Positions 33,308 through 58,349 of a stretch of DNA of 64,000 nucleotides are shown here, piece after piece (the first letter of the stretch is position 1; every line of letters begins with the position of its first letter). The notes under the pieces were generated by a model, which saw only the letters and a program-made list of their open reading frames with translations, did no database searches and had not been told where the DNA came from. Made by a program: the position numbers and the translations under genes. Source of the DNA: Sulfurimonas sp. HSL3-1 (GTDB lineage: Bacteria > Campylobacterota > Campylobacteria > Campylobacterales > Sulfurimonadaceae); NCBI RefSeq assembly GCF_039645995.1, contig NZ_CP147920.1, positions 2,418,001 through 2,482,000 on the forward strand, in the 5' to 3' direction.

Positions 33308-34306
33308 CTAACAGATCCTCGGCAACAGTTCGCCCTTAGGGAGATCGAGGAAACGGCGGCTGCCGAACGCGGAGTGCAGCACCACCTTGCCCGGGTACTG
33401 CGTCGTCGCCCGGCCGATCACCGCCGCGTCGCGGCAGAACCCGAACCGCTGCAGTGCGCTCACGGCAAAGGCCGCGTGCATCGGCGCGACGGCGGCAACG
33501 AAGGTCCCCTCGTTGGCCAGGTCCGTCGCTTCGAACCCGAACATTTCACAGATCCCCTGCACCTCATCGCTGACCTTGATCGCGGCCTCCTCGATCTCCA
33601 GGCAGACGTCGCTGTTTTCCGCCCATTCGTTCAAGACGGCGGCCAAACCGCCCCGGGTCGCGTCGCGTAGGGCACTGACGGAGATGTTTTCCGCCAGCAG
33701 CGCCTCGACGGCGGGCCAGAGCGTTTCGCAGTCGCTGCCGAGATCGGCGCTGACCTCCAGCCCCTCACGGGCCATCAGCACCGTCGCCCCGTGGCGTCCG
33801 ATATCGCGCGATGCGATGATCACGTCGCCCTCTTTGATCGCCTGAGAGGAGATCCCCTCACGCATGACCGCGCCGATACCCGCCGTATTGATAAAGAGTT
33901 TGTCGACGCTTCCCCGGGGCACGACCTTGGTATCTCCGCAGACGATCTTCGCCCCGGACTTTTCCAGCTCCTTGGCCATACTTTCAACAATGCGTTCCAG
34001 CTCCTCGAATGCGAAGCCCTCTTCGATCATAAAGGCCGAACTGAGATAGAGCGGCTTCGCGCCCATCATAGAGAGGTCGTTGACGGTGCCGGCGACCGCC
34101 AGCTTCCCGATGTCACCCCCCTCGAAAAAGAGCGGGCTGACCGTAAAGCTGTCCGTCGTGAACGCGATCTTCCCCTGCGTCTGCAGCACCGCCGCATCCT
34201 CGGCCTTGATGAGGATGTCGTTTTTGAAATGGCGGTAGAACAGGTCGTGGATGAGCTTGTTCGTCTCTTCGCCGCCCCCGCCGTGGCTGAGTTGTACCTG
34301 TTTCAT
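33308..34306 (-). CDS. hypE: Hydrogenase maturation protein HypE (carbamoyl dehydratase)
   Basis: 332 residues from ATG 34306, set by the ATGA overlap with hypD. The N-terminal HGGGGEETNKLI and the C-terminal PRIC are diagnostic. The terminal cysteine receives the carbamoyl group from HypF and is dehydrated to the thiocyanate that supplies the CN ligands. It lies downstream of hypD. Confidence 0.95.
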   Translation of the reverse strand: MKQVQLSHGGGGEETNKLIHDLFYRHFKNDILIKAEDAAVLQTQGKIAFTTDSFTVSPLFFEGGDIGKLAVAGTVNDLSMMGAKPLYLSSAFMIEEGFAFEELERIVESMAKELEKSGAKIVCGDTKVVPRGSVDKLFINTAGIGAVMREGISSQAIKEGDVIIASRDIGRHGATVLMAREGLEVSADLGSDCETLWPAVEALLAENISVSALRDATRGGLAAVLNEWAENSDVCLEIEEAAIKVSDEVQGICEMFGFEATDLANEGTFVAAVAPMHAAFAVSALQRFGFCRDAAVIGRATTQYPGKVVLHSAFGSRRFLDLPKGELLPRIC

Positions 34307-35430
34307 CCGAGCACCCCCGCATAGCGGTAGTAGGCGTTGCACGCCCCTTCCGAACTGACCATGCAGCTGCCCAAAGGGCTGTTCGGGGTACAGGCCGTTC
34401 CAAAGACCTTGCACTCCATCGGCTTCGCGAGCCCCTTGAGGATCGTGCCGCAGATGCAGAGTTTATGGTCGTCGATGGGTTCCGTCGGCAGCACCTCTGC
34501 GAACACTTTTTCCGCATCGAGATACGCAAATTCGTCCCGAAGCTCCAGAGCGCTGTCGGGAATATCCCCGATCCCGCGCCAGCGGAAATGGCTGCGCGGC
34601 TGCAGATACATGTCAATGAGCTGCTGGGCTTTAACGTTGCCTTCCATCGTCACCGAACGGGAGTATTCGATCTCCAGTTCGGCGCGCCCCTCTTTCTGCT
34701 GCCGTACAGCCATCAGGATCCCCTGCATCACATCGACGGGTTCGAAACCGCATACGACGACAGGGGTGCCGTACTTCTGAGGCAGCGGCGCGTAGATCTT
34801 CGCCCCGGTGATGACGCTGACGTGCGAAGGCCCGATAAAGGCGTTGATCTTCGCCTGGCCGTCGCTCATGATCGCGTCGATCGCCGGCGGCACGAGCACA
34901 TGGTTGATATGGAAATAGAGGTTGTCGACCTTCTGGGTAACTACCGCGTGCAGCAGCGCTGCCGTCATCGGCGTCGTCGTCTCAAACCCGATCGCAAAAA
35001 AGACCACCCGCTTGTCAGGGTTTTCCTTGGCGATCTTGAGCGCGTCCATCGGCGTATAGAGCGGCCGGATATCACGCCCCGCAGCCCGTTCGGCGGCCAG
35101 GGAGCTCTGCGATCCCGGCACGCGGATCATATCGCCCAGGGTCACCAGGATCGTATCCTCCATCCGTGCCAGCGCGATGGCGTGGTCAATCCGCTCTTTG
35201 GGCATGATACAGACCGGGCAGCCGGGGCCGTGAATAAAGTCGATGTTGTCCGGCAGCAGCTGCGGCAGACCGTATTTCATAATCGTATGCGTATGGCCCC
35301 CGCACACTTCCATGATCCGCAGCGGTTCGTGCAGCGCTTTCGCCTCCTCCCCGATCTGTGCGGCCAGCATCCGGATTGTGGCGGGGTCTCTGAACCCGTC
35401 GTAAAGGTCTTTGAGTTTCAGTTCGCTCAT
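34303..35430 (-). CDS. hypD: Hydrogenase maturation protein HypD
   Basis: 375 residues. Characteristic stretches are IMEVCGGHTHTIMKYGL, FIHGPGCPVC, FFAIGFETTTP and the C-terminal iron-sulfur region with KLCICGTILKGLAKPMECKVFG and CTPNSPLGSCMVSSEGAC. HypD with HypC forms the scaffold on which Fe(CN)2CO is built. It overlaps hypC (ATGA) and hypE (ATGA). Confidence 0.96.
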   Translation of the reverse strand: MSELKLKDLYDGFRDPATIRMLAAQIGEEAKALHEPLRIMEVCGGHTHTIMKYGLPQLLPDNIDFIHGPGCPVCIMPKERIDHAIALARMEDTILVTLGDMIRVPGSQSSLAAERAAGRDIRPLYTPMDALKIAKENPDKRVVFFAIGFETTTPMTAALLHAVVTQKVDNLYFHINHVLVPPAIDAIMSDGQAKINAFIGPSHVSVITGAKIYAPLPQKYGTPVVVCGFEPVDVMQGILMAVRQQKEGRAELEIEYSRSVTMEGNVKAQQLIDMYLQPRSHFRWRGIGDIPDSALELRDEFAYLDAEKVFAEVLPTEPIDDHKLCICGTILKGLAKPMECKVFGTACTPNSPLGSCMVSSEGACNAYYRYAGVLG

Positions 35431-35720
35431 GGTGCACCCCTGTTCTCGCAGTTGTCATCCTCCAGGACGACACGCGAGCGCTCTTCTTCGTCCATCTTCG
35501 CCAGGATCTCGTGGTAGACCTTGAGTGATTCGAGCGCGTCCTCCTCATCGATCTTGTTCATCACGAAACCGATATGGATCAGGACATAATCATCTATGTT
35601 GACGCTGCCCTCTTCCATCAGGTCCAGCCCCGCTTCGCGCTTGACACCCATTGTATCGACCACGGCACTGTTTTTCTCACGGTCGACGGAAACGACCTTT
35701 GAAGGGATAGAGAGACACAT
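35427..35720 (-). CDS. hypC: Hydrogenase maturation chaperone HypC
   Basis: 97 residues starting MCLSIPSKVV, with the essential Cys2, and the HypC pattern DYVLIHIGFVMNKIDEEDA. HypC carries the iron group from HypD to the large subunit. It starts 1 base after hypB. Confidence 0.95.
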   Translation of the reverse strand: MCLSIPSKVVSVDREKNSAVVDTMGVKREAGLDLMEEGSVNIDDYVLIHIGFVMNKIDEEDALESLKVYHEILAKMDEEERSRVVLEDDNCENRGAP

Positions 35721-35721
35721 C

Positions 35722-36516
35722 TTAGCTCCTCATCCTGCGTTTGAACTCGATCCACTCGATAACGCGCTGCACGGACGCTTCGTCTTTGATGCTGACCTCC
35801 AGGATATCGACGCCCGGTTTGATCTTGCGCGCCTCCGCCTTTTCATGTTCGATGTCGTAGTCAAAATAGGGAAGCAGGTCGGTTTTCGTGATCAGCACCA
35901 GGTCCGCCTGCCGGAACATGACAGGATACTTTTCAATCTTGTCGCTCCCTTCGGGCACGGAAACGAGTACGATGTTCAGGTGGGAACCGACGTCATAACT
36001 GGCCGGACAAACGAGGTTGCCGACGTTCTCGATAAAACAGACATCCAGGTCATCAAGCGGCATGTCGTGCAGCCCCTCGTGCACCATGAACGCATCGAGG
36101 TGGCAGGCGCTGCCCGTCTGGATCTGGTAGGCAGGTACCCCCTTAGCCTTGATGCGCTCGGCATCCCGGCTCGTTTCCAGGTCCCCCTCGATCACGCCGA
36201 AGCGGAAAGGGGCACGTTCCGCCATCTGCTCCAGCAGGGTCGTCTTCCCGCTGCCCGGACTGCTCATCAGGTTGATGGAGAGCACCCCGTGGTCGTCGAA
36301 GTGGGCACGGTTATGGCCCGCTTCGTGATCGTTCTTGTCCAGGATCTTTGTAATCACATCGATCGTCTTCTTGTCATTAAGCTGCGGATTATGGTGCAGC
36401 GTCTCGTGCGCCGCCTGATGGGCATGCGAATGCCCGTGGTGGTCATGATCGTGCTCATGATCATGATGGTGTCCGTGTGAATGTTCCGTCACACTGCAGC
36501 CGCAATCTTTACACAT
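35722..36516 (-). CDS. hypB: Hydrogenase nickel GTPase HypB
   Basis: 264 residues. The N-terminus has the high-affinity nickel motif CKDCGC and a long histidine stretch (residues 12-42, HSHGHHHDHEHDHDHHGHSH). The GTPase core shows LMSSPGSGKTTLLEQ (P-loop), FGVIEGDLETSRDAERI, CFIENVGNLVCP and ITKTDLLP. It is the first gene of the hypB-C-D-E-A unit. A palindromic site lies 230 bases upstream. Confidence 0.95.
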   Translation of the reverse strand: MCKDCGCSVTEHSHGHHHDHEHDHDHHGHSHAHQAAHETLHHNPQLNDKKTIDVITKILDKNDHEAGHNRAHFDDHGVLSINLMSSPGSGKTTLLEQMAERAPFRFGVIEGDLETSRDAERIKAKGVPAYQIQTGSACHLDAFMVHEGLHDMPLDDLDVCFIENVGNLVCPASYDVGSHLNIVLVSVPEGSDKIEKYPVMFRQADLVLITKTDLLPYFDYDIEHEKAEARKIKPGVDILEVSIKDEASVQRVIEWIEFKRRMRS

Positions 36517-36846: not shown

Positions 36847-37530
36847 ATGTCAACGCTTCAACACTGTCCCTACTGTCAAGGAAGTATTTACCGTCTGGGA
36901 GACGGCCGGTACAAGTGCGGGCGCTGCCGCCGAAAAGTCAGTCCCGCGCGCGTCGCGAAGGTACGAACGCTCATCGCGAGCTTCTCCCGGGACGAAAATG
37001 CCAGCGTCTCCGCCGAAGCGCTGGGACTGTCCTACGTCTCGGTCCACCGCTATTTCGGACAGTTCAGGCAGTTGTGCGCCCGCATCTGCGAGGATGAATA
37101 CGAGACGAGACGGCACCTCTCCTGCGAATACGAGGAGTATTTCTACCTGGAGCGGGCCAAAAAGCGGCGCAAAAACGCCGTGTTCGATGCCCACAACTTT
37201 CTCACCTTCGATTACGAGGGGCATCTCTACACGATCGTTATGCCCTCCCTGCAGCAGTTTCGCAACCAGTTCATCGAAGATGACCTCGAATCCGTCTACG
37301 CGGAGGAGTTCGCCCGTTTCCGGCGCCAGAGCCGCCTTATCAAGATCTCCTCGCGGCATAACAACATCGTCCGCTTCTGGGAATACTTTGAAGTGAACAT
37401 CCTCCGTTACCGGGGTGTATGCGACGAAAGCTTTCCCCTCTATCTCAAGGAGATGGAGTTCAAGTTCAACCACCCCGCCTCCGAACGGGAGCGGCTGCTG
37501 ATCGATTACTACTTCAAGGAGCACGAATGA
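36847..37530 (+). CDS. Transposase-derived (IS1595/ISXO2-like) protein, probably a domesticated DNA-binding protein
   Basis: 227 residues. Residues 7-27 form a zinc ribbon (CPYC then CGRC), followed by a helix-turn-helix (AEALGLSYVSVHRYFGQFRQL) as in the N-terminus of IS1595-family transposases. The C-terminal part keeps the family's end pattern (NNIVRFWEYFEVNILRYRGV, then YLKEMEFKFN). The catalytic core is shortened, and the usual VEVDETYFG block reads CEYEEYFYLE. No inverted repeats or target duplications are visible around it. Its stop overlaps the start of a hydrogenase protease gene (ATGA), so the two are co-expressed. I infer a regulator rather than an active transposase. Confidence 0.6.
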   Translation: MSTLQHCPYCQGSIYRLGDGRYKCGRCRRKVSPARVAKVRTLIASFSRDENASVSAEALGLSYVSVHRYFGQFRQLCARICEDEYETRRHLSCEYEEYFYLERAKKRRKNAVFDAHNFLTFDYEGHLYTIVMPSLQQFRNQFIEDDLESVYAEEFARFRRQSRLIKISSRHNNIVRFWEYFEVNILRYRGVCDESFPLYLKEMEFKFNHPASERERLLIDYYFKEHE

Positions 37531-38069
37531 TTCAAGCGACCACCGCCGTCCTGGGGGTCGGCAACATTCTCGAAAATGACGACGGCATCGCCGTCTACGC
37601 CGCGGCCTACCTCGATGCCAACTACCGCTTTGAGCCTTCAGTACGCATCATCAACGGCGGGGTCGAGGGGATCAATCTCCTCGACGTCTTTATCGAGCAC
37701 GAACGGGTGCTGATCCTCGACGCGATCGACATCGACGACGACGCGGGGAGCATCTATCATATCCCGGCGTCCGAGCTCACCGGTTACGGTCTGGGAAACG
37801 GGGGCGCGCATGAAGTGGGGGTGATCCAGTGCCTTGACATGCTGGAGCTGATGGGGAGGCCGCAGCCCGAATCGAGTGTACTGGGAATCGTGCCCGAACG
37901 CGTGGAAGTGCGCATCGGGCTTTCACCCTCCCTCACCGCCGCGTTCGAACGCTATGTCGAGAGCGCACTGAAAATTTTGCAAACCGCCGGCATTGACGTG
38001 CAGCGGCGCGAACCCGCCAGCTCCCTCGCGGAGGTTATCGAAGCCTTCCAGGCCTCCGGCGTCTCCTAG
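37527..38069 (+). CDS. NiFe hydrogenase maturation protease (HyaD/HybD family), active site intact
   Basis: 180 residues from ATG 37527, translationally coupled to the transposase-like gene. Family motifs are VLGVGNILENDDGIAV, IINGGVEGINLL and IVPERVEVRIGLSP. The three nickel ligands known in HybD (E16, D62, H93) correspond to an Asp in ENDDG, the Asp in LILDAI and the His in GGAHEVG, so the site looks functional. Such proteases clip the C-terminal tail of large subunits after nickel insertion. In this window HydB has such a tail and HupL does not, so HydB is the likely local substrate. Confidence 0.85.
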   Translation: MIQATTAVLGVGNILENDDGIAVYAAAYLDANYRFEPSVRIINGGVEGINLLDVFIEHERVLILDAIDIDDDAGSIYHIPASELTGYGLGNGGAHEVGVIQCLDMLELMGRPQPESSVLGIVPERVEVRIGLSPSLTAAFERYVESALKILQTAGIDVQRREPASSLAEVIEAFQASGVS

Positions 38070-38623
38070 AAGCCCCGCCCCAGGGCGACGCTGGGGGCGG
38101 CGAAGGTCTCAAGGATCGTCTCCAGGGTCACGCCGTCGTCCGATCGCTTTGTGCAGACGACGCCGGCGTGGGCCAAACGCGCCGTTATCGTTTCAATGTA
38201 GCGCTCCCAGGCGGCGCGCAATGGCGCGGAGAGCCCGACTTCGACGGAGATGATGTCGTCGGGCACGATGCTGATGACAGAGGTTTCGGCCATATTACCC
38301 GTCAGCGAACAGATCTGCAGCATCTCCGCTATTTCCACCTCGTTGGCCGTTTTTTTGATGAGCGATCCCTCCAAAAAGGTATCGCAGTCGCGCACGGTCA
38401 CCGTGCCGGCGGGCACATCCTCGTCCGAAGCCGTATTGACGATCAGCACCTCGTCATACTCCTGCAGCAGCGGCATCAGCCCAAACCCGAGCGTCCCGCC
38501 GTCGACGATATCGACGCCCGGTTCGAAGGTGTAGTTCTCTTTGAGGTATTTGGCCGCGTAAAGCCCGATTCCCTCATCCTTGAAAAACGCGTTTCCCGAT
38601 CCGATCAGTGCGATACGGTTCAT
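38066..38623 (-). CDS. hydD: HydD-type maturation protease homologue with altered nickel ligands
   Basis: 185 residues. The fold signature is present (LIGSGNAFFKDEGIGLYAAKYL, IVDGGTLGFGLM, ISIVPDDIISVEVGLS). However, aligned by eye to HybD the ligands read E17, N63 (in LIVNTAS, normally Asp) and N94 (in TANEVEI, normally His). Two of the three nickel ligands are therefore changed to Asn. It is the last gene of the hyd unit, overlapping hypF by 4 bases. Its stop codon overlaps that of the convergent intact protease in the four bases CTAG (38066-38069). It could be a chaperone or regulator rather than a protease. Confidence 0.7.
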   Translation of the reverse strand: MNRIALIGSGNAFFKDEGIGLYAAKYLKENYTFEPGVDIVDGGTLGFGLMPLLQEYDEVLIVNTASDEDVPAGTVTVRDCDTFLEGSLIKKTANEVEIAEMLQICSLTGNMAETSVISIVPDDIISVEVGLSAPLRAAWERYIETITARLAHAGVVCTKRSDDGVTLETILETFAAPSVALGRGF

Positions 38624-40896
38624 TCCTTCCCTCCTTGTCGGTACAGTGCATGGTAAAGCTGCCCCAGGGCGACGCCACCGTCGTTGACGGGCGTATCGCG
38701 CTGGACATAATAGCGGATCCCGAGCTCTTCCAAGGCGTCGCAGGCCATGGCCATCAGTGTCCGGTTTTGAAAAACGCCCCCGCTGAGCATCACCGGCATG
38801 CCGGGATGGCGCTGCGCAATCTCAGTGATCACTCCGGTGAGCGCCGCGTGCAGTCCCGCCGCCGCCCGGGCGGGGGCTTCAAGTGTCTGCCGCAGCAGCG
38901 GCTCCCAGTCGATCACCCCCTCTTCCACGGCGAAGGCAAATTCCCCGGGCAGCACCGTCCCGGCCGCCGCTTCCAGCCGCATTCCGCTTTCGCCCTCGTA
39001 GCCGAGGGTCTGCGCGCACCCCGTTAGTGACGCCACGGCATCAAAAAGGCGGCCGACGGAGCTGCTTTCTGGAGCATTCAGGCCGCGCTGCCATATGGTA
39101 TGAAGCGTCCTGATCTCCTCGGGTGTGAAACTCCCGACGGTCGGATGCGCCATCGCAAGCACGTCCTCAAGGCTATAACACTCGAATAACAGCGATAACG
39201 CCACCCGTCTCGGCTCCCGCACGGCCTGTTCCCCGCCGAGCAGCCGGAAGGGGCGGAAGTGGTATGCCCGTTCAAAACGCTGCGGATCGGCCAGAAGCAC
39301 CTCGCCGCCCCAGAGCGTCCCGTCGCTCCCGTATCCGGTGCCATCGAAACAGAACGCCAGCACCGGCTCATCCAGCCCGTATTCGGCCATGCAGGCCAGC
39401 GCGTGGGCATAATGGTGCTGCACCCGCACAAGCGCCGTGCCGGGATGCGCCGCGTGGAACGCTTCCGCCCACTTGGTCGTTTCATACCCCGGGTGCAGGT
39501 CGCAGACGACGATATCGGGTTCGAAGGCGTAAAAACGTTTGAACGTTTCGAGGGTGCGCTCAAAATACTCAAAGGCGTCGACGGAGACGAGGTCCCCGAT
39601 GTGCGGTGAGAGCACGATGTTTTTATCGAATCCCAGCGCGATCGTACTCTTCTGATTGGCTCCGACGGCAAGGATCCTGCCCGGTGCTTCAAAAGACAGC
39701 GGCAGGCTTCTGGGGGCATACCCCCGCGCCATCCGCAACATCAGCGTGCGGGAGCCGGCCACGGTCACGACGCTGTCGTCGCAGGCGTTGACGATCTCCC
39801 GGTCGACGTCCAGCACCGCGTCGACGACACTGCCCAGTTTCTCCCGCACCTGTACCGCGTCGGTGAGAATGGGCTCCTCGCTGATATTGGCGCTTGTGGC
39901 GACGACGGGCTGCTGCAATCGGTCCATCAGGAGCAGGTGCAGCGGCGTATAGGGCAGAAAGACGCCGATGCGGTCGATGCCCGGGGCAATCGGCTCCCCA
40001 AAAGCAAGCGCCGCTTTTTTCCGCACGACGACAATAGGACGTGTGTTAGAGAGGATGAGCCGCTCCTCCGCGTCGCTCAGCGCCGCGGCCTCCCGGATCA
40101 TCTCCAGGGAGGGGAACATCACGGCCAGCGGTTTGCTCGGGCGCCTTTTGCGCTCGCGCAGGCGCGCCACGGCGGCGCCGTTCGTCGCATCGCACATCAG
40201 GTGAAAGCCCCCCAGCCCTTTGACCGCGACGATCTGGCCGTCGGCAAGCAGCGCCGCTGCCCTGTCGATGCTCTCGTGCTCCGTCCCGATCGCCGCACCC
40301 GAGGGATCGGTCAGGGCAAGGTGCGGGCCGCACTCATAACAGCTGATCGGCTGGGCGTGATAACGCCTGTTAGCCGGGTCGTTATACTCGTGCGCGCACT
40401 GCGGGCACATGGCAAAAGGGGCCATCGAGGTCTGCGGCCGGTCATAGGGAAGTGCGCGGATGATGCTGTAGCGCGGACCGCAGTCGGTGCAGTTGATCAG
40501 CGGGTAGCGGTAACGGCGGTTCGCGGGGTCGAAAAGCTCGGCGGCGCAGGCATCGCACACGGCCATGTCCGGCGAGACCATCGTTTTTGCCGCACTGCTC
40601 TCGGAGCCCCGGATAGCAAAGGCCGTTTCGCCGAGAGGAGCCAGGACGTCGCGATGCACCTCATCGATCCGCGCCAGCGGCGGCGGGGATGCCGTCAAAG
40701 CCCTCTCGAACGCCTCCAGGGACGCCGGGGGACCTTCCACCTCGACTTCAACGCCGTCGCCGTCGTTGAGCACATGGCCTCCCACCCCTTCTCGGACGGC
40801 GAGCTGGTAAACGAAGGGGCGGAAACCGACACCCTGGACGATGCCGCGGATTCGGAACCGAAGGCGTTTAGAGGTAGACGCAGCCGACAACGGCAT
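38620..40896 (-). CDS. hypF: Carbamoyltransferase HypF
   Basis: 758 residues from ATG 40896, which has AGGGAGA directly upstream; a TTG 4 codons earlier is less likely. Domains in order: acylphosphatase (RGIVQGVGFRPFVYQLA), two HypF zinc fingers (CDACAAELFD, CTDCG, CPQCAHEYND, CYECG), YrdC-like domain (VAVKGLGGFHLMCDA), and Kae1-like domain with the metal motif HHYAHALACMAEYG and the C-terminal LSGGVFQNRTLM and NDGGVALGQ. It makes the carbamoyl group that becomes cyanide on HypE. It overlaps hydE upstream and hydD downstream. Confidence 0.96.
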   Translation of the reverse strand: MPLSAASTSKRLRFRIRGIVQGVGFRPFVYQLAVREGVGGHVLNDGDGVEVEVEGPPASLEAFERALTASPPPLARIDEVHRDVLAPLGETAFAIRGSESSAAKTMVSPDMAVCDACAAELFDPANRRYRYPLINCTDCGPRYSIIRALPYDRPQTSMAPFAMCPQCAHEYNDPANRRYHAQPISCYECGPHLALTDPSGAAIGTEHESIDRAAALLADGQIVAVKGLGGFHLMCDATNGAAVARLRERKRRPSKPLAVMFPSLEMIREAAALSDAEERLILSNTRPIVVVRKKAALAFGEPIAPGIDRIGVFLPYTPLHLLLMDRLQQPVVATSANISEEPILTDAVQVREKLGSVVDAVLDVDREIVNACDDSVVTVAGSRTLMLRMARGYAPRSLPLSFEAPGRILAVGANQKSTIALGFDKNIVLSPHIGDLVSVDAFEYFERTLETFKRFYAFEPDIVVCDLHPGYETTKWAEAFHAAHPGTALVRVQHHYAHALACMAEYGLDEPVLAFCFDGTGYGSDGTLWGGEVLLADPQRFERAYHFRPFRLLGGEQAVREPRRVALSLLFECYSLEDVLAMAHPTVGSFTPEEIRTLHTIWQRGLNAPESSSVGRLFDAVASLTGCAQTLGYEGESGMRLEAAAGTVLPGEFAFAVEEGVIDWEPLLRQTLEAPARAAAGLHAALTGVITEIAQRHPGMPVMLSGGVFQNRTLMAMACDALEELGIRYYVQRDTPVNDGGVALGQLYHALYRQGGKE

Positions 40897-42793
40897 TCTC
40901 CCTGCCAATGGGGTAGTTGACGTTCATCAGCGGGGGCGTGGCCTTCAGGTTGCGCTGCATGCGGCTGAAAAGTGACTGCTGTGCGAAATGGGCGCCGCAG
41001 AGAATAAAATGCTCCGCTTTTGTTTTGTCTTTGATCTGCTGCATTAGGTCGTTGAAATAGTCGCCGAAAGATTCAAAGATGGAGTAGGCGATCATCTCCG
41101 TCTCCACCCCTGCCAGGCGGTAGCTCACCAGGCTGGCCAGGAAAGCCGCGTGGTCGAAACGGTTGTCCTTGACGTGTGTATCGACCTGCACCCCGCCCTT
41201 CCCGTAAAAGCCCAGTGCCGCTTTGCTGACCCCGGAGAAATTTTCCTCCTCCAGTTCCAACACGGCGGCGGCCGCTTCGAAGAGGCTCGTCGCGCTGCGC
41301 TCCTGCAGCGCTTCGACGCGCGCATAGGCAGCGGGCAGTCCCTTCTTGAAGTTTTGTACCAGCCTGTCGGAACCTTCGCGCAGGGAGGCGATCTTCTCCA
41401 ACAGCCCCTCGGGTGCGAAGGCGATGGGCGGGACCAACCGGATCACCTTTCGCCCGTCATAATAGAGGAAAGAGGGTTCGTCGTCGAAATGGGCGCCGAC
41501 GCACTTCTGCCCGAAAAGGCCGTGCTCCGCGACGACTGACATAAACGACGCCTCGTCCTGGGCGGCGGGGCGCTGATGCGTATGCCACTGCTCCTCCGAC
41601 TCCCCCTCCAGCACGACGGCATTCTCGACCGTCACGCTGCCGAAATGCTCCGGTCGGTCGAACACGACGCTCTCCCCTTCGGGCACCCCGACCAGGCCGT
41701 GCGCCATCCCGAGGGTCTGCGACGCCGGCGCCATGCGCGACGGGAAACTCACCCGCTCGCCGGCGGCGACGAAACGGACATCCTTATTGATAAAGAGGTA
41801 CTGGTCGCTTTGGGAGGAGAGCTCCAGGTCATACTCCATCCGCAGGTCCGCGTCGCTCCGGGCGTCCGCCTCCTCGTAGTAGACGTAATCCACCCCCAGG
41901 CGCTGCAGCTCCGTCGCCAGCAGGATCGTAAAGCCGTCGTCGGGGTATTTCACATCCGCCGTGCGGCCGGCAACCGCCTGAAGCTCCGGGGCTTTGACCG
42001 ACACATGCAGCACGGGACGTTCGATGCCCAGCAGCGCATGGAACTCTTCGCCGATCAGGGAGAGGTAGTCGGTGATCTTCTCCGCATCGATCATCAGGAT
42101 CACGGCGTTGCCGAGTCCCTCGGGGCTCAGTTGAAAGCGGCGGTAGCCCATCGTCGTTTTGACCAGCAGCGACTTGGCATCGGCGACGGCCTTGGCCGCC
42201 ACCTCGAACATCGTTCTGAAGCTTCCGGCATCATTGGCATAGCGCTCGCGCCCCCCGCTTTCCAGGCGCACGGGCACGCCGCAGGCGTGGCAGCTGTTAA
42301 GGTGGTCCTTCTCCCGGCGGCCGTGCGTCTCCTGCTCCGATTCGCATGCCGTGCAGGGGCGCAGGTAGGAGAGGGCGCTGTTGGCGCGCTCAAAGGGGTA
42401 CGCTTCGAAAAAAGCATACTGCCCCCCGCACTGTGCGCAGTGGGTGAAGGGGTAGTAGTAGCGGCGCGACGAAGGATCGAAAAGCTCCTTCTGGCATGCG
42501 GGGCAGAGGCCGAGCCCCAGCGGGGGCGCATCGACCAGTTCCGGCAGCGTATCCGGTTCTCCCGCCGCCTCGTAGTGCCGGCTGCCGCTGAGATGCCAGG
42601 AGGCGGGAAGCCGCTCGGCGATGGCGCCGACACACGCCTCCAGTTGCGGGTGCTCCGAGGCAAATGCACAGGAGAGCGTCCCTTTTGACTGGACAATCTT
42701 TGCCGGTACGCCGAATTCACGGGCAATGCCGGCGATACAGTTACGCAGGTAAAATTGGGACGAGCTGCTCTGCAGTTCCATCACGAAGGCCAT
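40868..42793 (-). CDS. hydE: HydE-type protein: full-length HypF paralogue lacking catalytic residues
   Basis: 641 residues, ATG 42793 after AAAGGA. The zinc-finger region matches HypF almost exactly: four CxxC pairs spaced 18, 24 and 17 residues (CPAC, CAQC, CTAC, CHAC). The N-terminal segment has the size of the acylphosphatase domain but no VQGVGFR motif. A YrdC-like stretch follows (AAKAVADAKSLLVKTTMGYRRFQLS). The Kae1-like part aligns as SFMSVVAEHGLFG where HypF has HHYAHALACMAEYGLDE, so the metal histidines are gone. It ends HFILCGAHFAQQSLFSR, parallel to LSGGVFQNR. It sits between hydC and hypF. A HydB-specific assembly factor is a reasonable guess. Confidence 0.75.
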   Translation of the reverse strand: MAFVMELQSSSSQFYLRNCIAGIAREFGVPAKIVQSKGTLSCAFASEHPQLEACVGAIAERLPASWHLSGSRHYEAAGEPDTLPELVDAPPLGLGLCPACQKELFDPSSRRYYYPFTHCAQCGGQYAFFEAYPFERANSALSYLRPCTACESEQETHGRREKDHLNSCHACGVPVRLESGGRERYANDAGSFRTMFEVAAKAVADAKSLLVKTTMGYRRFQLSPEGLGNAVILMIDAEKITDYLSLIGEEFHALLGIERPVLHVSVKAPELQAVAGRTADVKYPDDGFTILLATELQRLGVDYVYYEEADARSDADLRMEYDLELSSQSDQYLFINKDVRFVAAGERVSFPSRMAPASQTLGMAHGLVGVPEGESVVFDRPEHFGSVTVENAVVLEGESEEQWHTHQRPAAQDEASFMSVVAEHGLFGQKCVGAHFDDEPSFLYYDGRKVIRLVPPIAFAPEGLLEKIASLREGSDRLVQNFKKGLPAAYARVEALQERSATSLFEAAAAVLELEEENFSGVSKAALGFYGKGGVQVDTHVKDNRFDHAAFLASLVSYRLAGVETEMIAYSIFESFGDYFNDLMQQIKDKTKAEHFILCGAHFAQQSLFSRMQRNLKATPPLMNVNYPIGRENAVVGCVYL

Positions 42794-42913: not shown

Positions 42914-43621
42914 TTAGGATTCCTGCTCTTTGGCGAACTTGCTGCCGCCGAAGACAATGGCGATATCCCCCTCTTTCCAGAAGATCGTCCGCCATATCTG
43001 GTAGTAGATATGGAAAGCGACCCAGGTAAGGATGAGCCACATCGATTCATGGTGCGAAATGCGCACATCCATCAGCGTTCCGCCCGTTACCGGGATGGTC
43101 CAGTCGGTGGCAAGGTGCAGCAGCGCCGGCCACCACGCCCCGATCGAACTCTGGCCGGACTCCAGTCCGTGAACATAGAGCTGCAGCCCGGTAAAGAGCA
43201 TCCAGATCAGGAGCAAGTGGAAAATCGTAAAATAGACCGTGTTGAAACTGTCGCTGTGCGTCGAATCAAACTTCTTGCGCCGGTTGAGCGTGACGAGGTT
43301 CAAAAGCACCTCGCCAAACTCGGCAATGTTTTTGCCGGTGGGAATAAGCTTCTTGTACGGCTTCTCGAAACGGCTGAAAAAATAGAGATAGGCGACGACG
43401 ATGGAGGTGACGTCAAAGATGATCGCCACGATAAAGTGCCCCCACCGGTTCCACGCCATCACGTATTTGTCCACCGCACCGTCGGCGATAAGCGTCTGGT
43501 AGTACGGGTGCCCTATGTAGAGCCCGGTGATCACGGCAGCCACCATCGAAATCGCGTTGGCCCAGTGGATGATGCGCATGGCGCCCGTCATCCGCTTAAC
43601 CTGTTTACGTTCGGATTTCAT
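42914..43621 (-). CDS. hydC: Hydrogenase cytochrome b subunit HydC
   Basis: 235 residues with four main hydrophobic segments. Histidines suited to haem ligation lie in MRIIHWANAISM, WGHFIVAII, IFHLLLIWML and WVAFHIYYQIW. It is the membrane anchor that passes electrons from the hydrogenase dimer to quinone. It is 9 bases downstream of hydB. A hairpin-capable GC-rich stretch separates it from hydE. Confidence 0.92.
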   Translation of the reverse strand: MKSERKQVKRMTGAMRIIHWANAISMVAAVITGLYIGHPYYQTLIADGAVDKYVMAWNRWGHFIVAIIFDVTSIVVAYLYFFSRFEKPYKKLIPTGKNIAEFGEVLLNLVTLNRRKKFDSTHSDSFNTVYFTIFHLLLIWMLFTGLQLYVHGLESGQSSIGAWWPALLHLATDWTIPVTGGTLMDVRISHHESMWLILTWVAFHIYYQIWRTIFWKEGDIAIVFGGSKFAKEQES

Positions 43622-43630
43622 GGGATCTCC

Positions 43631-45409
43631 TTAGATACTGCACTGGCTGTCGAGCTTGTAAACACCCAGCGATTTGCCCTTGGTATCGACGACGTGCACG
43701 GCACAGGCGATACAGGGGTCAAAACTGTGAATGGTCCGGATGATCTCCAGCGGCTGTTCCGGATCGGCGACCTTGGTCCCGATCAGGCTCGCCTCGTAAG
43801 CGCCCATCCGTCCTTTATAGTCCCGCGGACCCGCGTTCCAGGTGGAAGGGACGACGGCCTGATAGTTGGCTACCTTCCCGTCCTCAACGCGGACCCAGTG
43901 TCCCAGGGATCCGCGCGGCGCTTCGGCCAGGCCCATCCCCTTGGTTTTCACACTCACCTTGTCGAAGTCAAACTCCGTCCAGGTGCGCAGGTCGCCGGCC
44001 GCCGCGTTGGCGGCAAGCTCGTCGACCCACTCCACCAGCGCATCCGCCATCAGTTCAGTCTCAATGGCACGGCCCGCCGTACGGCCGACGGTACTGAACA
44101 GTACCGATACCGGCAGGTTGCCGCGCTTGAGGAAGTTCGTCACGTACTTCGTGATCCGCTCGTCCTTGCTCGCCACCCCGACGATCATCCGTGCCAGCGG
44201 CCCGACCTCGACGCGGGTATCGTTGTACATCGGCGTCTTGATCCAGCTGTACTTTTCCCCTGTCTTCAGGTAGGCGATGCCGTCATCACGCTTATCGAGG
44301 CCCGTATATTTCGGGATCGTCTGCCCGTTGTACGGGTGCAGCGGTTCGCTCCCCTCGTACCAGGAGTGCGTGACGTCTTCAGCGATCTTCTCATGGTCGA
44401 CCGGCTCGACCTTGCTCAGGTCGCCCCCGTAGACAATACCGCTCGGGAAGAGGGTTTTCGCATTGTAGAACCCGGTATCGTCCAGGCGGAAGTCGCCGTA
44501 GCTCATGTAGTTGAGCAGACCGCCGCCGGTCCCGCCGACGCCTTTGCCGCCGATGAGTTCCGTAAACGTCGCTTTGGAGTCCGTCGCTTCGTCTGCGTAC
44601 ATCGTCCCCGCCATGTAAACGTCAGGCAGATAGGCCTGCTTGATAAATTTGTTCGTGTCGGTCAGCAGCTGTTTGAACAGCGCAATGCGCGCCGGATTCT
44701 CAATATCCTGGACACAGGTGACGCCGCCGACGACGATGGATTGCGGGTGTGGGTTCTTCCCGCCGAAGATCGCCTGCATCTTCGCCATATCACGCTGAAT
44801 ATCCAGGGCCTGGAGGTAGTGCGCTACCCCGATCAGGTTCTGTTCCGGCGTGAGCTTGTAATGTTTGTTCCCCCAGTAGCCGTTGCCGAAGATCCCCAGC
44901 CGGCCCTGTTTGACGAACTTCGCGACACGTTCCTGGATCGCTTTGAACTCGCTCGGGCCGTCCGTGTACGGTGAAACGCCTGCGACAGCGGCCCATTTGC
45001 GTGCCTCTTCCGCCGTTTTGTCGGGATCGGCCGACAGTGCGGAAACGACGTCGACAAAGTCCAGTGCATGCAGGTGGTAAAAGTGCACAAGGTGGTCATG
45101 CACATACAGTGACCCCTGGATCAGGTTACGTACGATCCGTGCATTTTTCGGAATCGTAATGTCAAAAGCATCCTCGACGGCCTCGATGGAACGCTGATAA
45201 TGCGTCCCGGTACAGACACCGCAGATACGCATGGCCAGCAACCCGCAGTCCCGCGGATCGCGCCCCTGAAGGATCGTTTCGATCCCCCGGAACATTGTCG
45301 AGGAGCTGTAGGCATCCACGATGGTGTTGTTTTCATCAATCACCGCCTCGATACGCAGGTGTCCTTCGATCCGCGTAATCGGGTCGACTACAATATGTCT
45401 CTTGCTCAT
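43631..45409 (-). CDS. hydB: NiFe hydrogenase large subunit HydB (membrane-bound uptake type)
   Basis: 592 residues. The active-site cysteine pairs are in RICGVCTGTH near the N-terminus and DPCIACAVH near the C-terminus. A 20-residue tail follows the final His (VVDTKGKSLGVYKLDSQCSI) and must be cut off by a maturation protease. It has no signal peptide; it is exported with HydA. The subunit order and sequence fit group 1b of the Campylobacterota. Its ATG overlaps the hydA stop (TAATG). Confidence 0.96.
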   Translation of the reverse strand: MSKRHIVVDPITRIEGHLRIEAVIDENNTIVDAYSSSTMFRGIETILQGRDPRDCGLLAMRICGVCTGTHYQRSIEAVEDAFDITIPKNARIVRNLIQGSLYVHDHLVHFYHLHALDFVDVVSALSADPDKTAEEARKWAAVAGVSPYTDGPSEFKAIQERVAKFVKQGRLGIFGNGYWGNKHYKLTPEQNLIGVAHYLQALDIQRDMAKMQAIFGGKNPHPQSIVVGGVTCVQDIENPARIALFKQLLTDTNKFIKQAYLPDVYMAGTMYADEATDSKATFTELIGGKGVGGTGGGLLNYMSYGDFRLDDTGFYNAKTLFPSGIVYGGDLSKVEPVDHEKIAEDVTHSWYEGSEPLHPYNGQTIPKYTGLDKRDDGIAYLKTGEKYSWIKTPMYNDTRVEVGPLARMIVGVASKDERITKYVTNFLKRGNLPVSVLFSTVGRTAGRAIETELMADALVEWVDELAANAAAGDLRTWTEFDFDKVSVKTKGMGLAEAPRGSLGHWVRVEDGKVANYQAVVPSTWNAGPRDYKGRMGAYEASLIGTKVADPEQPLEIIRTIHSFDPCIACAVHVVDTKGKSLGVYKLDSQCSI

Positions 45410-46641
45410 TATCCTTCTCCTCCCTCTTCTTTCTTACCGGCAACTGCACTGGCGACGGCATGAATACCGATACCGATACCCGCCGCCGTCAGGAGACCGA
45501 GACCGAACTGGTCCACGGTCTTTTCGACACCGCCGGTCGGTGCTTTGATATTCGCATTGGCCATCGGCCGCTCATAGGCGTATTTGTCCCAGAAGTCCGG
45601 TTCGGCACAGCCGATACAGCCGCGACCGACGCCGATCGGCCAGTTGACCCCTTCGTTGTAGCGGATAATGGAGCAGTTGTTAAAGGTCATCGGTCCTTTA
45701 CACCCCATTTTATAGAGACAGAAGTTGTTCTTCGCACCTTCGTCGCCCCACTCCTCGACGTACTCGCCCGCGTCGAAGTGCGCACGGCGTTCGCAGTTGT
45801 CGTGGATACGGTATCCGAACGCGAATTTCGGACGCAACAGGGAGTCAAGCTCCGGCACCTGCCCGGTGAGGGCATAATGCAGGACAACGCCGACCATATT
45901 CGCCGGGTTCGCCGGGCAGGCCGGGATGTTGATCACCGGTTTGCCCTTGATAACGTCCATTACCCCGACGGCTCCCGTCGGGTTCGGCGCCGCGGCGGGA
46001 ATACCGCCGAAGGTCGCACAGGCACCGACCGCCACAACGGCGGCGGCGTCTTCGGCGACACGGTTCAGGTGATCCAGAAAGTTCTCGCCGGAGGCACCGA
46101 TGGTACACCACTCCCTGCCGACACCGACGGGAATGGAGCCCTCGACAAAGAGAAGGTAGTTCCCTTTAAAGTGCTCCATCGCATCTTCAAGCTGTTTCTC
46201 CGCCTGGTGTCCCGCCGGTGCCATCAGCGACTCGTGGAACTCCAGCGAAATGATGTCGAGAACGATCTCGTCGATCTTCGGCCCGTCGCTGCGGAGCAGC
46301 GCTTCGGAGTTGCCCGCACAGTCCTGAAGCTCGAGCCAGATAACCGGCAGGCGGTTCATCAGTTCGGCGGCTTCCGCGACAAGCGGCGTGAACATCGGCG
46401 GCAGCATCAGCATCGCCGTGACCGCACTGACCCATTTCATAAAGTCACGGCGGTCCTGCCCCTCGTCGCTGAGCAGGGATTCGAAGTCGAGCCGGTTGAC
46501 CGCCGGCTGCTCCCGCAGAGCGTCCAAACGCGTCCGACACGTATCGAACAGTTGTTGATAATATAGGTCACCCCGGTTCGTATCTACCCTGGCGCTTTTC
46601 GAGGTGAAGAGTTTCCGCACCCCATCTATTCGTTCAGCCAT
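45409..46641 (-). CDS. hydA: NiFe hydrogenase small subunit HydA
   Basis: 410 residues from ATG 46641, preceded by GAGGAGGAAACG. An upstream in-frame ATG at 46677 would place the palindromic site inside the coding region. The Tat motif (DRRDFMKWVSAVTAMLMLPPMF) begins only at residue 63, an unusually long n-region. Cluster ligands follow in DCAGNSEALL (Asn in place of the second Cys), GACATFGG, PACPANPAN, HDNCERRAHF, FCLYKMGCKG and RGCIGCAEPDF. A C-terminal hydrophobic helix (FGLGLLTAAGIGIGIHAVASAVAG) anchors the dimer to the membrane. Confidence 0.95.
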   Translation of the reverse strand: MAERIDGVRKLFTSKSARVDTNRGDLYYQQLFDTCRTRLDALREQPAVNRLDFESLLSDEGQDRRDFMKWVSAVTAMLMLPPMFTPLVAEAAELMNRLPVIWLELQDCAGNSEALLRSDGPKIDEIVLDIISLEFHESLMAPAGHQAEKQLEDAMEHFKGNYLLFVEGSIPVGVGREWCTIGASGENFLDHLNRVAEDAAAVVAVGACATFGGIPAAAPNPTGAVGVMDVIKGKPVINIPACPANPANMVGVVLHYALTGQVPELDSLLRPKFAFGYRIHDNCERRAHFDAGEYVEEWGDEGAKNNFCLYKMGCKGPMTFNNCSIIRYNEGVNWPIGVGRGCIGCAEPDFWDKYAYERPMANANIKAPTGGVEKTVDQFGLGLLTAAGIGIGIHAVASAVAGKKEEGGEG

Positions 46642-46659
46642 CGTTTCCTCCTCGATAAA

Positions 46660-46673
46660 TGAATGATCATTCA
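46660..46673. promoter_or_regulatory. TGAAT-N4-ATTCA palindrome upstream of hydA
   Basis: TGAATGATCATTCA is a perfect 14-base palindrome, 18 bases before the hydA start codon and just upstream of its ribosome-binding site. A weak TAGAAT -10-like box (46681-46676, minus strand) is 2 bases away. It is placed as a repressor operator would be. Confidence 0.65.
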
Positions 46674-46857
46674 CCATTCTATGTGCTAATAACTTAAACT
46701 TATCTAAAGTTGGGGTTTGGCCCCTTTCCCGGTGAAATTCTTATATCTTTTTGGAACCAGCTTTAGAAGAGATTTTTGTGAAGATCCATATCTATGATAA
46801 CAATATTTCAAGACATAATGTCTGCCCTGTACGGCCTCTCTGCCCGGTCCCATCGGA

Positions 46858-56164: not shown

Positions 56165-57466
56165 TCAGTGCGTCGTGCACACCGAACAGACGTCAAAACT
56201 GCGGAAAACGAACGTCGCCTCGGCGATATCGGCGGCACCGACCATCGCTTTTTGCGCCGGGGCGGGATCGGACATCACGGAACTGCCGAGGTTCCACTGC
56301 GTCGGCGTAATAATCCCGTATTCGGCGACGATCCCCCGCTCCAGACGCATGCGATGCATCAGCGGTCCGCGCGGGGCCTCGACGATCCCCTCCCCTTCGG
56401 CGCTGATGCGTTCAAGGGGCGCCGGCGGGACATAGGAGGGTTCGGAGAGCTCCAGTTCCGCCAACAGCGTTTTCGCATGCTGTAGCAGCACGGCCGTCTC
56501 GTACGCCCTGGCCATCACCCGTGTGTACACGCTGTCCTTGTAGCGTCGATGCATGTTTTTGATCAGGGCGGTATCGGCCGAGATCGACCGGGCGAGCGGC
56601 CCGACTTCATAAAAGTGCTTCCCGTAGCGGACATTGCGGGCATGACTCGTCTCATCCCGGCAGACTGCCGGTTCCGTCGATACCTGGGAGGGATCAGCTT
56701 TCATCGGACGGGTATGTTTCAGCCGTGCCCGCACCGTAAAGCCGTGTTCTCCCAGAACGACAAACCGGTCGTATGCCATCCCCTTTTTATGCATCTCCGT
56801 CGCGATCAGGCCCTTTTCCAGACGCCCGAGATCGCTCTGCAGCGGGTTGAATTCCCGGCAGGAGGCAAAGGAGAGCAGCGCATCCAGCCCTACGCCCGCC
56901 GTCTCCTTTTCGAAAAAACCGATCAGCTCGTCCAGAAGCCCCGCCGCCTGGATCCGCTCCAGGTGTGTCGGGTCGCAGGTGACACCGCCGGGGATCATGT
57001 AGGAGCTGTGGGGCCACTGCCCGGCGAAGAGCGCAAGGATCTTCGTCGCCTGCGCTGCGGCGTAGGCGCCCTTGAGCGGGGCCGGAGAGATGCCTCCGAC
57101 ACCCAATTTTTCCAGTTCGGGCAGGATGACGAGGTAGAGCCATTTGAAATGGTTCTGGATCATCTCGAGTACCAGCGTCAGCTCCCGGATGCTCCGCGCC
57201 TTTCGCGTCAGCTCGACCGGATAGCCCGCCTGCGCGTATGCCGCCTCGATCGCCCGGACGGTCGCCATCAGGTGAGCGTGCCCGCAGATGCCGCAGACCC
57301 GCGGCGTGATCACCAGGGCATCGGTCGCCTTGCGCCCCTCGAGCATGCGCTCCATCCCCCTGAAATGCGGAAAGGCGATCTCCGCCCAGGTGATCTTCTC
57401 CCCGCGGGTGTCGAAATAGAGCGACGCCTCCCCCTCGATGTGTTCAATCAGTGCCTTAGTCATCAT
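56165..57466 (-). CDS. NiFe hydrogenase large subunit, HupL/HupV-like, without C-terminal extension
   Basis: 433 residues, shorter than most large subunits. Active-site pairs are RVCGICGHAH and DVCSVCTTH; the second is the very end of the protein, so there is no tail to cleave. The usual DPC is DVC. No signal peptide is present. Members of group 2 include cytoplasmic uptake enzymes and H2 sensors; sensors typically lack the tail. It overlaps hupS by 11 bases and lies downstream of a tetR gene. Sensor or rTCA-related uptake enzyme remain open alternatives. Confidence 0.85.
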   Translation of the reverse strand: MMTKALIEHIEGEASLYFDTRGEKITWAEIAFPHFRGMERMLEGRKATDALVITPRVCGICGHAHLMATVRAIEAAYAQAGYPVELTRKARSIRELTLVLEMIQNHFKWLYLVILPELEKLGVGGISPAPLKGAYAAAQATKILALFAGQWPHSSYMIPGGVTCDPTHLERIQAAGLLDELIGFFEKETAGVGLDALLSFASCREFNPLQSDLGRLEKGLIATEMHKKGMAYDRFVVLGEHGFTVRARLKHTRPMKADPSQVSTEPAVCRDETSHARNVRYGKHFYEVGPLARSISADTALIKNMHRRYKDSVYTRVMARAYETAVLLQHAKTLLAELELSEPSYVPPAPLERISAEGEGIVEAPRGPLMHRMRLERGIVAEYGIITPTQWNLGSSVMSDPAPAQKAMVGAADIAEATFVFRSFDVCSVCTTH

Positions 57467-58349
57467 CGGTAAGCCGCTCCTCCAGCCGTTTGATTTTGAA
57501 GCTTTTGGCGATGCCGGTCATCGTCAGGTAGGCGCGCTTGGAGACGCCGACCGGCACCTCTTCGGGAATCGACATGTTCGTCTTCGTTTCAAAAAGGTTG
57601 CGGCGCGGGAAATCGGGCTCGGTACAACCGAAACAGGGCGTGCCGACGCGCATTTTCGAACTGACGCCGTTCCAGAGCGTCCGGTTGCACGAGGCGTGGG
57701 TCAACGGCCCGCGGCAGCCGTGTTCATAGAAGAGGCACCCCTCCTTCCGCCCGAACTGCTCCGCATCCACCTTCCACTCGAAGTATTCGTTACGGAGGCA
57801 GCCGTCATGCGCCATGTGGCGGTAGAGCGCCGTCGGCCTTCCCAGGGCGTCGACGGAAATAGGACGCCCCTCCGCGATGTTCATCAGGGCGAATCCGAGC
57901 CATTCGGGGTGCACGGGGCAGCCGGAGAGATTGATCACTTTGCCGGCTTTTCCGAGCAGGGGGCCGTCGGGATGCTCCCCGGCGTAGGCCAGGCCGCTGT
58001 TACGTTCCGGCGCCGCCGCTTTGAAGATACCGCCGAAGCTGGCGCAGCTGCCCGCCGCGATGACGTGACCGGCTTCCTCGGCATAATACGCCACCAGCCG
58101 CTCCAGCGTCACGCCGGCGCGTTCCATCATCGGATCGAAGGCACCTTCGAAGACAAGGACGTCACATCCGCGTCTGCAGCGCGCAATCTCCTCCAGGTTC
58201 TGGGAACAGGGGAGCAGCGGATGGTAGAGGATCTCAAAACGCGCCAGCAGCTGCGGCAGATAGGGAAGGTTTAAAAAGGAGTGGGTGTTGCCGTTGCAGG
58301 TGACACCCTGAAGCCAGATCAGCGTCGGTTTAAACAGTCTTGAGCGCAC
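57456..58349 (-). CDS. NiFe hydrogenase small subunit, cytoplasmic HupS/HupU-like
   Basis: 297 residues with no Tat signal and no C-terminal anchor, so cytoplasmic. The proximal cluster motif is [15 protein letters not shown], with Asn where most small subunits have the second Cys, as known for cyanobacterial HupS. The other ligands are [38 protein letters not shown] and [11 protein letters not shown]. The start overlaps the tetR gene by 20 bases. Confidence 0.88.

Follow-up and report, generated by a model that had tools for sequence, protein, structure and literature searches.

HydE of Sulfurimonas, a HypF paralogue stripped of its catalytic motifs and probably a private assembly helper of an exported NiFe hydrogenase

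Two unrelated proteins carry the name HydE, and for this reason the name can mislead. The maturase of [FeFe]-hydrogenases is a radical-SAM enzyme unrelated to the HydE of NiFe operons; it has the name alone in common with the protein described here, in which no Pfam or NCBIfam match to a radical-SAM CxxxCxxC domain was obtained. One member of the NiFe kind belongs to the hydrogenase operon of Helicobacter pylori, hp0631-hp0635. According to PMC7695850, citing Benoit 2004, hydE mutants of this bacterium have no hydrogenase activity and are not rescued by nickel, with urease remaining normal. Years after this loss of activity was reported, authors still call the function of H. pylori HydE unknown or incompletely understood. 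In the literature searched, which was mostly outside subscription papers and is thus weak evidence of novelty, no paper linking the NiFe-operon HydE to HypF was found.

The window analysed here is a stretch of 64,000 nucleotides from Sulfurimonas sp. HSL3-1 (NZ_CP147920.1, positions 2,418,001 to 2,482,000), which holds the following features, in window coordinates and all on the minus strand:

33308..36516 (-), hypB, hypC, hypD and hypE, ORFs assigned from sequence and used as references for the synteny comparison
38066..38623 (-), hydD, hydrogenase maturation protease (HycI/TIGR00072)
38620..40896 (-), hypF, genuine carbamoyltransferase (TIGR00143, 778 bits)
40868..42793 (-), hydE, HypF-derived pseudoenzyme of 641 aa (Pfam, PDB search, hhalign, Foldseek, motif count)
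42566..42793 (-), HydE residues 1-76, acylphosphatase-like domain (AlphaFold secondary structure, Foldseek acylphosphatase matches, motif count)
42281..42505 (-), HydE residues 97-171, two HypF-type zinc fingers with eight Cys (zf-HYPF 8e-14, spacing)
41831..42271 (-), HydE residues 175-321, YrdC-like domain without KGLGG, RKRRPSKP and TSAN (hhalign to residue 270, Foldseek YrdC/Sua5)
40871..41782 (-), HydE residues 338-641, Kae1-like region without HHxxH, DGTGYG and NDGG (HypF_C_2 at 492-624, Foldseek Kae1/TsaD)
42914..43621 (-), hydC, cytochrome b subunit (PF01292)
43631..45409 (-), hydB, NiFe large subunit (PF00374 at G000:C1:2461694-2463289)
45409..46677 (-), hydA, small subunit with an RRDFMK Tat motif (profile and motif)

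Three further elements surround these genes. At 36847-37530 (+) lies a 227-aa zinc-ribbon protein with a weak likeness to IS1595 transposases, annotated as 'transposase' in relatives, which occupies the same place beside hyd/hyp genes across many Campylobacterota families and may serve as a domesticated regulator instead of being a mobile element. Hydrogenase maturation proteases form a tail-to-tail pair at 37503-38069 (+) and 38066-38623 (-), the second protease of the pair being confined to window-like clusters. Finally, a large and a small subunit, both short and hydrogenase-like, are encoded as a pair at 56165-57466 (-) and 57456-58349 (-), possibly a sensor hydrogenase; many relatives have similar short pairs directly upstream of hydA.

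A preliminary description of this DNA had seen in hydE a HypF-shaped protein without HypF chemistry, with HypF-like zinc pairs, the HypF domain order, replaced catalytic motifs and a genuine hypF beside it, a picture that was borne out in nearly every part. The reading frame is real and encodes exactly 641 aa, and hypF lies directly downstream, its start (ATG 40896 or TTG 40890) overlapping the last 23-29 bases of hydE. The four CxxC pairs (C97/C100, C119/C122, C147/C150 and C168/C171) show the spacing 18/24/17 in 13/13 full-length HydEs checked, that of the window among them; in nine HypFs it is 18/24/18, so that the pairs and the first two gaps agree with HypF and the last gap falls one residue short; the eight zinc cysteines are kept in 21/21 full-length HydEs of the alignment. 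Pfam finds two zf-HYPF stretches (E=8e-14) and, at 27.2 bits for a cut-off of 27, HypF_C_2, the second Kae1-like subdomain, and the NCBIfam hypF model TIGR00143 gives 85.6 bits, far under its family cut-off of 466.1. A PDB sequence search matched HypF chains alone (1e-15), and a profile of 25 HydEs aligned with one of nine HypFs across residues 16-270 (hhalign E=2.8e-31). The order acylphosphatase-like, zinc, YrdC-like, Kae1-like is kept according to Pfam, hhalign and fold search together. Residue correspondences in the Kae1-like part are less certain, since the alignment there has only about 20% identity.

The predicted structure is likewise HypF-like. An AlphaFold model built from HydE sequences alone, without HypF rows, was poor overall because of the shallow alignment (pLDDT 55, pTM 0.34), and every one of its nine best Foldseek matches in the PDB was a HypF; the next matches were structures of YrdC/Sua5, Kae1 and acylphosphatase, each corresponding to a single HypF domain. 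Addition of HypF rows raised the model to pLDDT 69 and pTM 0.47, with a TM of 0.65 (by query length) to the HypF of the HypE-HypF complex 3VTI, a figure which is not independent evidence because HypF sequences were in the alignment. Two trivial explanations of the resemblance were discarded. A chance likeness of zinc fingers is ruled out by the hhalign result, the Kae1 Pfam match and the fold search, and a decaying hypF duplicate by the intactness of the ORF and its conservation (33-88% identity) across many families.

The loss of chemistry was followed in an alignment of 32 HypFs and 50 HydEs. The acylphosphatase motif VQGVGFR, the YrdC motifs KGLGG and TSAN, the Kae1-like metal and nucleotide motifs HHxxH, DGTG (DGTGYG) and NDGG, and WGGE are all conserved in the 32 HypFs and intact in 0/50 HydEs, so that the replacements of VQGVGFR, KGLGG and HHxxH first noticed in the window hold across orthologues. 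In residues 1-76 the beta-alpha-beta-beta-alpha-beta order is retained in the AlphaFold secondary structure with the catalytic VQGVGFR gone by motif count. Single motif residues survive, such as K212 and some glycines; full-length forms retain both K212 and G216 in the YrdC loop. HydE has in turn signature residues of its own: E258, D538 and S557 in 50/50 and E574 in 47/50. All HydEs split from all HypFs with full SH-aLRT support in a midpoint-rooted tree with long branches. Profile comparison, fold search and this family-wide loss show HydE to be a HypF-derived pseudoenzyme, in which a predicted HypF fold is kept and the residues needed to hydrolyse carbamoyl phosphate, make carbamoyl-adenylate and transfer the carbamoyl group are lost.

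HydE proteins form a graded series, from full-length forms of ~640 aa with 8 Cys, labelled 'hypothetical protein' in RefSeq (Sulfurimonas paralvinellae, Sulfurovum mangrovi), through mid forms (585-610 aa) and short forms (465-515 aa, with the YrdC-like part strongly reduced), to the classic operon HydE of 505-630 aa with one CxxC/CxxC site or none. The classic protein aligns end to end with the full-length family (hhalign E=4e-73 across 551 columns) and matches the HypF profile at E=2e-9. Along the series a protein can lose its zinc module and much of its YrdC part and still retain an N-terminal domain, SIE[RK]P region and Kae1-like core; as shorter HydEs do without zinc fingers and much of YrdC, the surface that does the work may be another than the HypF-like one. 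The gene order hydA-hydB-hydC-hydD-hydE occurs in small genomes of one Campylobacterota family and is that of H. pylori hp0631-hp0635, from which, together with the profile, we infer that the classic HydE includes HP0635.

The distribution of hydE was surveyed in 200 Campylobacterota genomes, with HydC called at a profile E<1e-50; the counts are not independent, since the genomes are related to each other. A strong HydC is present in 190/200, and a HydE match well above the HypF background in 190/190, among them G196, whose broken assembly holds just a fragment of HydE. Conversely, intact HydE was found in 0/10 genomes without HydC, cases that fall in several families and suggest several separate losses. 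Full HypF is kept in 4/10 of them: in G126 and G129 the sole hydrogenase has its HydA fused to an FAD oxidoreductase without a Tat motif, and a hyp set is present, and in G142 and G179 hydABC has been lost, hypF kept, and decayed hydE remnants with several stops persist (G142:C1:721417-721608, locus L107, and G179:C1:696905-697246, locus L105). Every examined HydA of hydABC sets has an RRxF Tat motif and the FAD-fused HydA none. HydC-less hydrogenases have no HydE of their own, and this includes the second one of the window genome (L065 9311-13493, G000:C1 about 1731310-1735492), whose 833-aa small subunit carries a fused FAD/BFD-type oxidoreductase and which is without Tat motif, HydC and HydE.

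The association extends to subtypes. HydB of at least 71% identity to the window HydB shares its genomes with HydE of the full/mid/short type, and in two genomes with two hydABCDE sets, G122 (in tandem, with one hypF) and G125, each HydE type follows its own HydB type. hydE is linked to hydABC and/or hypF; at locus L077 it lies with hypFBCDE, apart from hydABC. In mirror-tree comparison HydE correlates about as well with HydB as with HypF, which gives no separation of the partner. Two interrupted copies were seen with intact neighbours, one in three frames in a second hyd cluster of G163 (L080 11064-13016) and one split into two overlapping frames in G036 (L083 6322-8081). On plasmids of S. 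paralvinellae and S. mangrovi (L108, L109), hyd and hyp clusters with hydE lie near an integrase or IS21 gene, for which reason the module may move as a unit. In a plasmid collection, both full-length HydE matches were from Campylobacterota and the others among the matches listed were HypF; a single close-relative scan of chromosomes for HydE outside the phylum returned Campylobacterota MAGs.

Altogether, genomics and the published H. pylori mutants strongly indicate that HydE is dedicated to maturing the HydABC hydrogenase, which is exported by Tat and linked to cytochrome b. Given that its catalytic residues are lost and that it travels only with one exported hydrogenase kind, it is probably a private assembly helper of that kind. 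The preliminary description had offered two roles, a scaffold for HypE/HypF and a HydB-specific assembly factor. Sequence surveys favour the second, as HydE tracks the Tat-type HydABC and not HypF, in a different wording: 'specific to exported HydAB(C)' is preferable, because HydC and Tat export are here indistinguishable as correlates, the HydC-less but Tat-type hydrogenases of G125:C18 and G004 having HydE elsewhere in the genome.

As to mechanism, HydE would bind apo-HydB, and its HypF-derived surface would dock HypE or a HypCD(E) complex, letting cofactor insertion, HydD cleavage and Tat export run in order. Most likely, then, HydE would join apo-HydB to the Hyp machinery ahead of cleavage and export. 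The reading as a whole, a HypF paralogue with fold kept, chemistry lost and a dedicated role in HydABC maturation, with docking as the most likely mechanism, is held with good though not full confidence. A bolder version, in which HydE adds an undescribed stop to the delivery of the [NiFe] cofactor, where a dead HypF captures HypE-thiocyanate or HypCDE and hands Fe(CN)2CO to one exported hydrogenase only, is a tentative proposal.

Among the alternatives, a late-acting HydE survives best, although we consider it rather unlikely: a Tat proof-reading or HydAB-HydC assembly chaperone in a role like that of HyaE/HybE/HoxO/HoxQ and without contact with Hyp proteins would agree with the tracking of HydC and Tat-type HydA, and with one paper (PMC4992972), where HydD and HydE are described as involved in membrane localization of the hydrogenase complex, but would account for neither the HypF ancestry nor the hypF linkage, even if paralogues can be fully repurposed. 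The first of the two roles originally offered, a general HypE/HypF scaffold or regulator serving every hydrogenase, for instance as a dead partner in the HypF-HypE complex, is disfavoured and appears improbable. The overlap of hydE with the adjoining hypF, the arrangement at L077 and a partial distance correlation of 0.69 between HydE and HypF speak for it; against it, complete HypF persists without intact HydE in the four genomes where HydC-type hydrogenases are absent, and where a genome has two HydEs these track its two HydB types, although the locus has one hypF only. Finally, an enzyme of altered chemistry acting through the new conserved residues D538, S557, E258 and E574 is very improbable, since the invariant polar residues peculiar to HydE and the retained K212 and G216 are set against metal, ATP and carbamoyl motifs that are all broken and a YrdC-like part much reduced in short forms.

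For HydE as a dedicated, HypF-derived helper, the ancestry provides candidate partners (HydB, HypE and HypCD) and surfaces that can be tested. To produce Campylobacterota HydABC in a foreign host, HydE would probably be needed. Compared with HypF (TIGR00143; PDB 3VTH, 3VTI, 4G9I, 3TSP), HydE shares the domain order, the eight zinc cysteines, the predicted fold and the genomic neighbourhood, and differs in the broken catalytic motifs of all three enzymatic domains, a length shorter by ~100 residues, the last zinc gap (17 vs 18) and a score of 85 bits against the 466-bit family cut-off. With the classic HydE of NiFe hydABCDE operons (H. pylori HP0635, Wolinella type) it has in common operon position, homology and the linkage to HydABC; the classic protein is shorter, with at most one CxxC/CxxC site and a weak visible similarity to HypF, whereas the window HydE keeps the whole HypF layout. 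In function, the nearest parallel, by analogy, is HoxV, a large-subunit relative without activity that a passage of a 2025 review regards as a probable intermediate scaffold. Like HydE, HoxV/HupK is an inactive relative of a hydrogenase-system protein that serves one exported hydrogenase, but it derives from the large subunit rather than from HypF and has no homology to HydE, which would join HoxL, HoxV, HupF, HupK and HypX, the factors named in that passage, as a HypF-derived ancillary factor.
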